This document shows positions 58,959 through 63,923 of a stretch of DNA of 64,000 nucleotides, in pieces. Under the pieces are notes generated by a model that was given only the letters and a program-made list of their open reading frames with translations, ran no database searches and was not told where the DNA came from. Source of the stretch: Styela clava. Lineage: Eukaryota; Chordata; Ascidiacea; Stolidobranchia; Styelidae. The stretch is from positions 11,852,974 to 11,916,973 of the forward strand of contig NC_135259.1 in the NCBI RefSeq assembly GCF_964204865.1, in the 5' to 3' direction. Each line of letters starts with the position of its first letter. Within the stretch, counting starts at the first letter, position 1. Both the position numbers and the translations under genes were made by a program.

Positions 58959-61900
58959 TCAGTCTTTGCCATCTTCGTATTCTGCAACTCTTTCTTTGTA
59001 TTCAATGAGATGTTCCAATATATCTGGAGATATAAATATATTTTAATTGGCACAATTGGCATATTTCAACATCACATACATGCACAGTTGTATTTTTCAA
59101 CTTTGGCAATGGTCCAATCAGACCCGATTGGATAGCAGGTATAAAACTGGAAAACTTTCACACGATTAGACACAATATAGCCTACAAAAATCTGGCTTCC
59201 TCAACTTATTTTCAAATGGTTATCTGGCTTAGAAACTTACAAATATTAATTGTTACGCACATGTAAAACTTAGCCTATATATAGCCTACCTTCCATAGAC
59301 GGACGTGCAAATTCGTCATCTTCACAACACCATGATGATACAGCAAGTAATTCAGTTTTTGCATCAGTTATTTCACTTTCTGAAGCTCTCAGATCTTCTG
59401 GTTCAGGATTTTTCTTGTATTTAGACTTAGGAAGACGTCGACATATTTGCCAAAGAACCAGACCGAATCTTGAGTAGATTATTAGAAGAACGATTGTTAG
59501 ATAAAATGATAAAGCTAATCGAGACTAAATACATTTTACAATTTTATTTTTCTAGATTTGGAAAAACCTCAACCATTGGTCACCATTATTTATGCATGCT
59601 ATCGTTTTTCTTTATAGTTGAAATATATTTATGCCTGGAGAATCCTCGGTAAAACGAAACGTTACAGAAATACATTTGTGTTAGTGTGCATCAAAACTCT
59701 TGAATCAAATGAAACAAGCTAATGGAAGTTTTTGTATTGCACGACACACTGTCGGCTTGCAATTGGTGCTCTTGTAAAATAATTGTTTTCATGCTGTTTA
59801 ATATATATGCTACAACTTGGGTATGTTGTAGTGAAGTGAATATAGTTGTAAAATATCAAACTGCAAACCGCTAAAAGCTTCCAGTGTAAGTGCTTGGCTT
59901 AGGTCAATGCGATTGATCAAACTTCTGTCTATAACTTGTTATGATGTCATAATGATGTACGTTAACAAACAAAACAAAGCCTCCATGTTCCAGACGATAA
60001 TGCCTTGCTCAGATGACATCATAAAATGATCAATAATTTGGTTTCTGCGAGACTAACAACGTATCCTTCTTCTATGCTTTTGTGCCGGTGGATCCGTATG
60101 CATATAATGCAAGGATGTTGTAGCAAGAGTAAAGATAACTATCCTAAGTGATTCAAGAGCCTTGCTGCACACTAACACTCTTGAATCATTTAGAATAAAA
60201 TGATCACACGCGTAATAAAGTAATGTTCCCAGCGCTCGAACACTTACTCGTATATTTCAGTTTTTTCGTCATAAGTACCCGCAGAAGATTTATCAGATTT
60301 TTTGCTTGCAAATATTGATTTCCTTGATCCTGGTGCATTTTCTCCAAGCACTTGATTAGAAAACCCAAACCCGGATATCTGAAACAATGTAGATATATAT
60401 ATTCAAATATGACAAATTGACAATTATTTGCGACACGCATCCTGAACGATTCAATAAAAGAATACAACCTTTATGTGAAAATCCTCATTCACTAAGAACT
60501 TTGTTGAGCATAAATTTCCGTGCAACATTCCACTGCAATGTATGAAATAGAGACCTCTTGAAGCTTCCACAGCCATTCTGACTTTTAAGTCATTATCAAT
60601 TGGTATTTTTGACAGAAGAATCTGGAAATAAAAGAGTGTGAGTGTGTGATATGGAGAAAGATTCTAGGTCGGGAAAATGATAGAAAGTTTATTATCCTAA
60701 TTGTGCAGCCAATAGTCAAAAAGTCTTTACTTTGTTCAAATTTCCGAGTTCCATGTTTTCCATCACAAGCAGATATGAATCTTCTTTCGGATCAACACTA
60801 ACACCGAAAACTCTCACAACATTTTCGGAATTCAAATGAACCAGTTTATTTGCATCGTTGATGAAAAGATCTTTTCTGCAAACAACATAAAAGCATTTCA
60901 TTGAAGAACAAATTTTTTCGACATTCGATATATAACCGCTGATAAATGCATTCATTTTAATGATCGATTAAATCAACTCACGTTGCTGGGGTAAGGGTGC
61001 ATCGCAGCTTTTTCACAATCACAGTTGACATTCTATATTTTGCCGTGTAGATGTCGTACAGTGAACTCTTCTTCACTCTTTTTCGTTGCTTCAAATCAGC
61101 ACAATCTATGTTACTCAATGCGGAAAGACCTCGAAACAAGAAAAGTAGGATTTTATTTTTTTTAAAAAAGAGAGCTACGCTCAAATATATGGACACATAG
61201 CGCCACCTAGTGGCAAATTCGAATGACGTCATAGCACTCAAAAAACGAATCCCATGCAGCTCACCGAAATATTTGAAATAAATAAAAGTAATAGCCTTCT
61301 AGAGAAAAATTCCATCTTCAACCACTGAAAATTTCAAAGCGAATGGTCCAGTAGTAATCAATGAGAAAAGCGGATTTTTCATAACGATACCAATAAGAAT
61401 TCAAATAATAATAATAAGAAGATTGCCAGCATAAGATGCAAAACGATCGTTATGTCCACTTACGTGTCCAATAACAACATATATATCATATATTGTACGG
61501 TTCCATTATATTTGAACCCGTAATTTGAAGCCACGACAATCGCACCTCCATACTATTGCATCTATGGAAATTTGCACCTACATATATTTGAACCCATACT
61601 AACCCTAACCCATGGATTTTAGCACCCGCATATAGATTGAACCCGCGCCTATACGGGTGCAAATGTACGTGGGTTCAAATGTGCTGTCACCATAATTATT
61701 GTACATATATATATATATATATATATATCGGAGTTTAGTGATTTTTTAATATTTCAGAGCCTCTGTCATCTGTGAAATCTGTCATATAACAGACCTAGTC
61801 CTTTCATAATTTGTTGCATCTCCTGCAAATCTTCACATTCATCTTTTGTGTCTTGAGTTCCTCGCAATCCCGGAGCAAATAAATTTCTGACAGATCGTCT

Positions 61901-63923
61901 GTGTTCGACGTGTAAACCGAGAGTAAGTGTAGGTATGAGATCATTCAATTTCTCGTTCAGATATTCAAATTTTTCCTAAAGTAATGGCTCAGAATATTGA
62001 TTGAGTTGTCTCGCTGGCGATAGGGTTGCAAGATCTTTTAGAAATTTGAAATAAAAAATTCATCAAGTATTAATTAAATGTTAAATAGAGGTATATCCGG
62101 GCGATGTAGATGTTAACTACTGGACACTAGGCATATTTGTAACTATTAATTTGTTGTTTTGACTGTCGCTTTCTAGTTTTACGGTATGCGTCACGGCCAT
62201 TTGTCAAAAACATTCACAAGAAACATGGAATAGATTAGACCAGTGGTTCTCAAACTTATTAAGCAGCGCCCCTTTATAGAATTTGTCAAGTCGCGCGCCC
62301 TACCTCAAAAATAACTAGCTAACAATAAGCTACAAATAACAGAAAGTAAAGCGGAAGTGAGTTTTCTTCAAAAAACACGTTAAAAATACGTGGATTGAAC
62401 GAAAAAAATGAACTAAAGGAAAAGTTTTGAAATTTAAATATCCAAAATAAGGCGGACAAGATCCAAATCTAACAAATATTTTTATTAGCTTCACCCCCCA
62501 TCAAAAAATTGTCTACGCCCCCCTTTTGGTACGCGCCCCACCGTTTGAAAACCACTGGACTGGACTACATTTATCTGCCAGCAATAGTTTATGCCATCTC
62601 TTAAAATACTTTCGCATAATTGTGCTTTCGTCTGTGTGTTCTAACCCGCTGGACAACTCTAAAAAACATCTGAAATTTTGCATTGGGGAAGTAATGAAAA
62701 AAATTTTGGGGGTTCAATAATCGTGAAAACAGCCATTAGGTGGCCAATGGAATGTGCGACCTATTAAGAATCCTACCGCTTCAGCTCGGGTAACGTTTCT
62801 CTCACGGAGAAAAGTTCAATAATTTCTTTTTCGTCATAAGAACAAAATCTTTCACCACGGAATGCTTTTTGCAAGTAGATCGGTACGTATTTTATCAAAG
62901 TAACGCCTTACCTTCACTTGAGATGGATAGCAATAGTCTTGAATACGCTTCGTAACAGTTTTGGTTCTGGTAAAGGTTTTCATAAATTGCCTCGCTTCTT
63001 CCAATGTTTGTACAAGGTCAATTAAAGCTTCCTTGTAAACAACTTCACGCTCTTTCTAAAATTAAACATGAATATTATAGTTCTGGGATTACTTTTTGTT
63101 AGTAAATTTTATTGACAAATAAACCAGTGGCGTAGCATCCACCCCCGCGGTCGCGGGAGGGCTCACAGCGCAAAGGGACCCAAGCGGTTAGAATTTAGAA
63201 ATTTAAGCCGCAAACGAAAAGCTACAGTGCGAAACAAGTAATGCACATCTCATAACGTTGATGTAAGTTCTGCTCAATTTGTTTTGTTACGTAACAATGC
63301 CAAAGAGTCGTCGATTTTCGGTGTCTTGTGGTTTGATCGCACCGGCAAAATTACGAAGGCTGTCAGAATGATGTCGAAAGCAAAACCTCTCAGTGGCGCA
63401 CAGGAACGCAGAAGAGGAAGAACGTATGAAAAAAATTAAGTAACCAAGATAAACGGCAAATGTTAGGTTACCATTGCCTTTTTATAGCGACATGTTATGC
63501 TTTTTGACAAAAAAAAACACGTTGTTTTAGCTTATGTCCGAGCGTTTTTAGGGTCATTTCCACGAAATATTTTTGCGGGGGGGGGGGGGCACGAGAGTCT
63601 TGCTACGCCACTGAAATAAACAAAATGTTTTTTTGAAAATGTTGGTTCGTGGAGTTTTTATCATTTTTCATATTTTTACAAGATATTTCGTTCAGAGAAA
63701 AACTTTTAATTTGAATGCTCTGCATGCCGAGAAATGAAATATATATATAATATATATAAACATAGATACTTACATCTTTGAAAAGTTCCTTTAGCGGGGC
63801 AACCAAATATCGTACGCGATCACTGAGTCTTTTACATCTTTGCTTGTTAGCCTTTACTTCCTCAACTGTTTGATGCACTTTCTTAGAAACTCTGTATACA
63901 CACTCAATTATTTCTAGCACCAT
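58959..63923 (-). CDS. MLKL-like protein: four-helix bundle plus pseudokinase, nine exons
   Basis: Exons in transcript order are 63923-63774, 63055-62912, 61975-61795, 61129-60982, 60875-60731, 60621-60469, 60378-60248, 59468-59290 and 59023-58959. All are in phase: 431 residues (human MLKL 471). An in-frame stop precedes the ATG, so the N-terminus looks complete. Residues 1-~125 are helical; KQRCKRLSDRVRYLVAPL (27-44) aligns with KKQCRRLGHRVLGLIKPL of MLKL. A helical linker follows. The kinase part has Lys198 in VIVKK, ENVVRVFGVSVD and MELGNLNK (MLKL: PNILRIFGICID, CELGTL), HGN at 290-292 instead of HRD, GFG at 310-312 instead of DFG, then EIYEFGLVLWQI and ARPSMEDIL. No Gly-rich loop is seen, so catalysis is unlikely. 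In vertebrates RIPK3 phosphorylates MLKL, which then permeabilises the plasma membrane. The intron 3 donor (GTCTGT) and its acceptor are weak; that junction is the least certain. Confidence 0.87.
61499..61697. mobile_element. Short MITE with TTTGAACCC inverted ends, copy 2
   Basis: The interior matches 27461-27653: TACTATTGCA, ACTAACCCTAACCCATGGAT, CATATAGATTGAACC and GGGTTCAAATGT in the same order. A 7-bp ATTGTAC occurs at 61492-61498 and 61698-61704 and may be the target duplication. It lies in the intron between MLKL-like exons 3 and 4. Confidence 0.6.
61708..61728. repeat. TA microsatellite
   Basis: About ten TA units in a row, in intron 3 of the MLKL-like gene just beyond the MITE. Confidence 0.8.
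62241..62557. mobile_element. Short hAT-like MITE, 317 bp
   Basis: Ends CAGTGGTTCTCAAACTT and, in reverse complement, CAGTGGTTTTCAAACGGTGG are inverted. Flanks GATTAGAC and GACTGGAC agree at 6 of 8 positions, as expected for an aged 8-bp target duplication. It lies in the intron between MLKL-like exons 2 and 3. The start of the insert inside 47888-48653 has the same terminal sequence. Confidence 0.75.
63125..63613. mobile_element. hAT-like MITE, 489 bp, with exact target duplication
   Basis: AAATAAAC flanks the element exactly (63117-63124 and 63614-63621). The inverted ends share CAGTGGCGTAGCA. There are C-rich and G-rich tracts just inside the ends, including a G run near 63577. No transposase is encoded. 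It lies in the first intron of the MLKL-like gene. Confidence 0.88.

Follow-up and report, generated by a model that had tools for sequence, protein, structure and literature searches.

The window analysed here, a stretch of 64,000 nt of DNA, carries close to one end a complete-looking gene predicted to encode MLKL, the protein that breaks membranes in necroptosis. On the minus strand, between positions 58959 and 63923, nine exons join in phase into a predicted model of 1296 nt, including the TGA stop codon, that encodes 431 amino acids; when rebuilt from the sequence, the model reproduced both the count and the ends given in an earlier note on this DNA, which had claimed nine in-phase exons and 431 residues. 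All eight introns have GT-AG boundaries, preserve the phase and measure between 90 and 936 nt. The donors of intron 3 (GTCTGT) and intron 6 (GTTGTA) are weak, and use of an alternative in-frame acceptor lying 24 nt further into exon 4 would yield a 423-residue form, shorter by eight residues; neither the weak donors nor the alternative acceptor alters the domains. For segments drawn at random from the window and matched in length to the individual exons, the chance of being open in a given frame is 0.05-0.32, and it is the match of the product to the Pfam family MLKL_N (E 6e-24) that makes the nine-exon frame more than a chance assembly. Between the methionine codon at 63923 and the preceding stop there is no further in-frame methionine codon (ORF 63603..63977), and the start codon is 77 bases from the window end on the upstream side.

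As read from the DNA, the gene is a single spliced open frame predicted to join an N-terminal domain of the MLKL_N family, a linker and an MLKL-type pseudokinase. Exon 1 (63774..63923, start codon at 63923-63921) encodes residues 1-50, with the presumed first bundle helix, and exon 2 (62912..63055) encodes residues 51-98, with the presumed middle bundle helices, both placed by homology in an alignment with mouse and human MLKL. Exon 3 (61795..61975) would contribute the last bundle helix (F101, N105, L108, L115 and L117), the acidic linker, which contains D140-T-K-D143, and the start of the brace, which ends in exon 4 (60982..61129) ahead of the N-lobe and its VIVK lysine. Exon 5 (60731..60875) runs from the N-lobe to the hinge (VMENMELGNL), exon 6 (60469..60621) holds the counterpart of the catalytic loop (HGNLCSTKFLV), and exon 7 (60248..60378) has GFG replacing DFG and a shortened activation loop. 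The C-lobe, with the motif EFGLVLW, lies in exon 8 (59290..59468), and the C-terminus in exon 9 (58959..59023), which closes with TGA at 58961-58959.

Two introns of the gene contain elements bounded by inverted repeats. Within intron 2, a 325-nt stretch (62237-62561), which we take to be a hAT-type MITE, lies between 19-nt inverted repeats that are 89% complementary. Within intron 1, the ends of the segment 63126-63612 are 12-nt perfect inverted repeats (agtggcgtagca and tgctacgccact), a pair that was spotted by eye and falls below the 14-nt minimum of our inverted-repeat search.

Elsewhere in the window, a Pfam scan of 20 neighbouring ORFs gave matches above cutoff to the sulfatase, sulfatase C-terminal and DUF829 families, all on the minus strand. 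Sulfatase or Sulfatase_C domains are found in ORFs at 7676-7879, 8190-8579, 16099-16452, 32125-32481 and 34533-34841, and two of these ORFs overlap on one profile region. Because both cover the same region, the window holds at least two sulfatase genes, perhaps as a tandem cluster. The DUF829 ORF is at 4314-4676 (41.3 bits, cutoff 25). None of these families points to a particular clade. An ankyrin-repeat ORF at 45442-45687, also on the minus strand, has Pfam matches slightly below the cutoffs and may be synphilin-like; the 41-53 kb region around it contains several long open frames. Neither an Rfam family at gathering score nor a tRNA was found anywhere in the 64,000-nt window.

Both halves of the protein point to MLKL. 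Residues 8-147 match the four-helix-bundle family MLKL_N (PF22215) at 84.6 bits against a curated cutoff of 27, and residues 187-416 match PK_Tyr_Ser-Thr at 94.8 bits. In a phmmer search of the PDB, the best 11 of 1836 matches are all MLKL (119.1 to 76.7 bits), followed, within the best 60 of the 1836, by CSK (57.7 bits) and RIPK1 (55.8 bits). Full-length MLKL in 4btf is matched in both of its parts (i-E 1.3e-6 and 6.8e-24), with the N-terminal domain of the window protein aligning to residues 12-162. The structures 4btf and 6lk5 are of mouse and human MLKL, respectively. Identity in the N-terminal part is 26.8% to mouse MLKL (40/149) and 29.0% to human MLKL (42/145). In the pseudokinase it is 29.8% to mouse (70/235), 29.4% to rat, 29.3% to horse and 26.7% to human (62/232), with values of 20.2-25.1% for RIPK1, RIPK2, two RIPK3, IRAK4 and CSK.

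An IQ-TREE analysis of 11 kinase-domain rows, the kind of RIPK and MLKL comparison that the earlier note had proposed, groups the window row with four mammalian MLKL at 99/97 support and leaves RIPK1, RIPK2, two RIPK3, IRAK4 and CSK outside. Every other row of this tree is mammalian, and it says that the kinase part is MLKL-like rather than RIPK1/2/3, IRAK4 or CSK, and nothing beyond that. The window row is also its longest branch (1.8), and its position is less sure than the 99/97 support suggests. Membership in a RIPK-type or other kinase family was rejected on the PDB ranking together with the tree: the kinase fold of RIPK1, RIPK2 and RIPK3 is related to that of the window protein, but the tree sets all three apart from the group of MLKL and the window row.

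The possibility has also to be considered that the gene encodes a TKL-family pseudokinase whose helical N-terminus is unrelated to that of MLKL, with the likeness having arisen by convergence. Kinase identities to MLKL that barely exceed those to IRAK4 (25.1%) or RIPK1 (23.7%) would fit such an origin; however, the MLKL_N score at three times its cutoff, the domain order common to the window protein and MLKL, the support for grouping with MLKL, and the F, N, L, L and L of the last helix, which are spaced as in rotifer MLKL and identical in mouse and human, together make convergence hardly credible. The architecture claimed in the earlier note, a helical N-terminal block with an MLKL-like kinase part, is thus borne out at the level of sequence by the two domains, the PDB matches and the tree.

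Whether the gene comes from an invertebrate bears on how unusual its presence would be. MLKL is found in most vertebrate groups (PMC11476962), and in a fish or agnathan, for example, the gene would be ordinary. Identities of 26.7-29.8% to mammalian MLKL are nevertheless close to the mean of 25.19% between invertebrate and vertebrate sequences given in that source, an argument of little weight from a comparison that covered mammalian proteins, and a GC content of 31-37% offers only weak counter-evidence of its own. We consider a vertebrate origin unlikely and an invertebrate deuterostome the likely source; a tunicate, more narrowly, would be a guess.

The kinase part is predicted to be a pseudokinase: the VAIK lysine is kept (as VIVK), whereas HGN replaces HRD, GFG replaces DFG, and a lysine occupies the column of the catalytic-loop asparagine, in agreement with the kinase fold lacking catalytic residues that had been noted before. 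Mouse and human MLKL have the same domain order and have likewise kept the VAIK lysine and lost HRD and DFG; human RIPK3, in contrast, has HRD, the asparagine and DFG. The mammalian proteins differ from the window protein in having GFE and the RIPK3 phosphosites, and in the alignment the activation loop and C-lobe of the window protein are shorter than theirs. At the columns of the phosphosites (T357/S358 in human, S345/S347 in mouse) the window protein has gaps, a reading that comes from one alignment of a variable loop in which other serines remain. Such phosphosites mark the mammalian pathway more than membership in the MLKL family: the sea cucumber protein AjMLKL, from an invertebrate deuterostome, is reported to be armed and to work without phosphorylation by RIPK3 (PMC11932488).

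The N-terminal bundle can be compared with that of a rotifer MLKL in which 12 residues were mutated (PMC11476962). Matched by spacing, 8/10 positions outside the T77-K78 pair are identical in the window protein and the remaining two change from I to V, while the pair itself reads T-R. Mutation of E22 was harmless in the rotifer protein, according to the same source; without it, seven of the nine single positions whose mutation impaired rotifer MLKL are identical here, with the two I to V changes making up the rest. This conservation speaks against an MLKL ortholog that lacks lytic activity and serves in some other role, an alternative to which we would give a limited but real chance, since some invertebrate MLKL N-terminal domains did not kill cells and the window protein has a shortened activation loop and C-lobe. 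In Ciona intestinalis, the MLKL N-terminal domain kills HEK293T cells; of the 22 invertebrate N-terminal domains, only some are named as causing robust death, and that of Styela clava is not one of the domains named (PMC11476962).

We consider it probable that the window gene is an MLKL ortholog of an invertebrate deuterostome, possibly a tunicate, and that it has lytic activity. By analogy with studied relatives, the pseudokinase would act as a brake that holds the N-terminal bundle inactive; upon a signal, the bundle would be released, oligomerise, bind lipids of the plasma membrane and break it, and the cell would die by lysis. As the trigger, a different kinase or a proteolytic cut would be more likely than RIPK3, because urochordates are reported to have no RIPK3 and because the window protein has no counterparts of its phosphosites.

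Published accounts of these kinases do not fully agree. RIPK3 is described as absent from urochordates (PMC11507063, PMC11932488) and as present in vertebrates only, with C. intestinalis having RIPK2 only (PMC11507063), a statement with which the mention in PMC11932488 of a sea cucumber RIPK3, one that does not bind the MLKL of this animal, is partly at odds. For RIPK1, PMC11507063 also cites older work that described the gene from Urochordata, against which PMC12119088, under its own definition, finds no homolog in tunicates.

Proteolysis has precedents in both human and sea cucumber MLKL. The human protein is cut at 137-DQQD-140 by caspase-3/8/10 (PMC9369655, in the part available), and in the window protein D140-T-K-D143 aligns under this site and under DRQD of mouse, within an acidic linker where the alignment has some freedom. 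AjMLKL is instead cut by caspase-1 at 14-LVAD-17 and said to have no D-x-x-D at the position of human D140 (PMC11932488), whereas the window protein has DTKD there, no such site at the sea cucumber position, and a single L-x-x-D (LFKD, 47-50). As a putative caspase site, D140-T-K-D143 is only a lead, and one that we mark down for several reasons: the protein has three D-x-x-D motifs (at 140, 167 and 428); in 20,000 shuffles of the 28-residue linker such a motif arose anywhere in 19% and at the column of the human site in 0.8%; the alignment has freedom; and the residue after D143 is Glu, where the consensus is A/G/S/T (PMC9369655, as available). That a caspase controls this MLKL in place of RIPK3 is a guess. 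In a broader form, the idea would be that MLKL was armed by caspases cutting where the brace begins before there was a RIPK3, and that the window protein, which lacks the phosphosites, has kept D140-T-K-D143 from that older mode; we regard this as a rather long shot. If it were true, a cut at D140-T-K-D143 would free the bundle from the pseudokinase brake.

The earlier note had taken MLKL to be described mainly in vertebrates and had known of no description of a gene of this kind. While its identification of an MLKL stands, on both domains and the small tree, the restriction to vertebrates and the novelty do not. A 2024 study presents 22 invertebrate MLKL, two from urochordates (Ciona intestinalis and Styela clava), and a second comparison finds MLKL in all ten deuterostomes compared, C. 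intestinalis included (PMC11476962 and PMC11507063, both in the portions available). A first description was dismissed on these two reports. The published urochordate proteins, which come from invertebrate chordates, combine the N-terminal domain with a pseudokinase (PMC11476962), as the predicted window gene product does. As to the age of the family, PMC11932488 has MLKL arising only once protostomes and deuterostomes had separated, unlike PMC11476962, which also reports MLKL in rotifers; a paper on Botryllus (PMC10093557), in the part available, names MLKL only when defining necroptosis. The window gene is one more MLKL, or possibly one already among the sequences of PMC11476962, and it adds a complete-looking gene model to the small published set (22 invertebrate sequences in that source). 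Its value lies in the question of how MLKL is armed in animals that lack RIPK3, for which the gap in the activation loop and the aligned D-x-x-D may offer one testable candidate.
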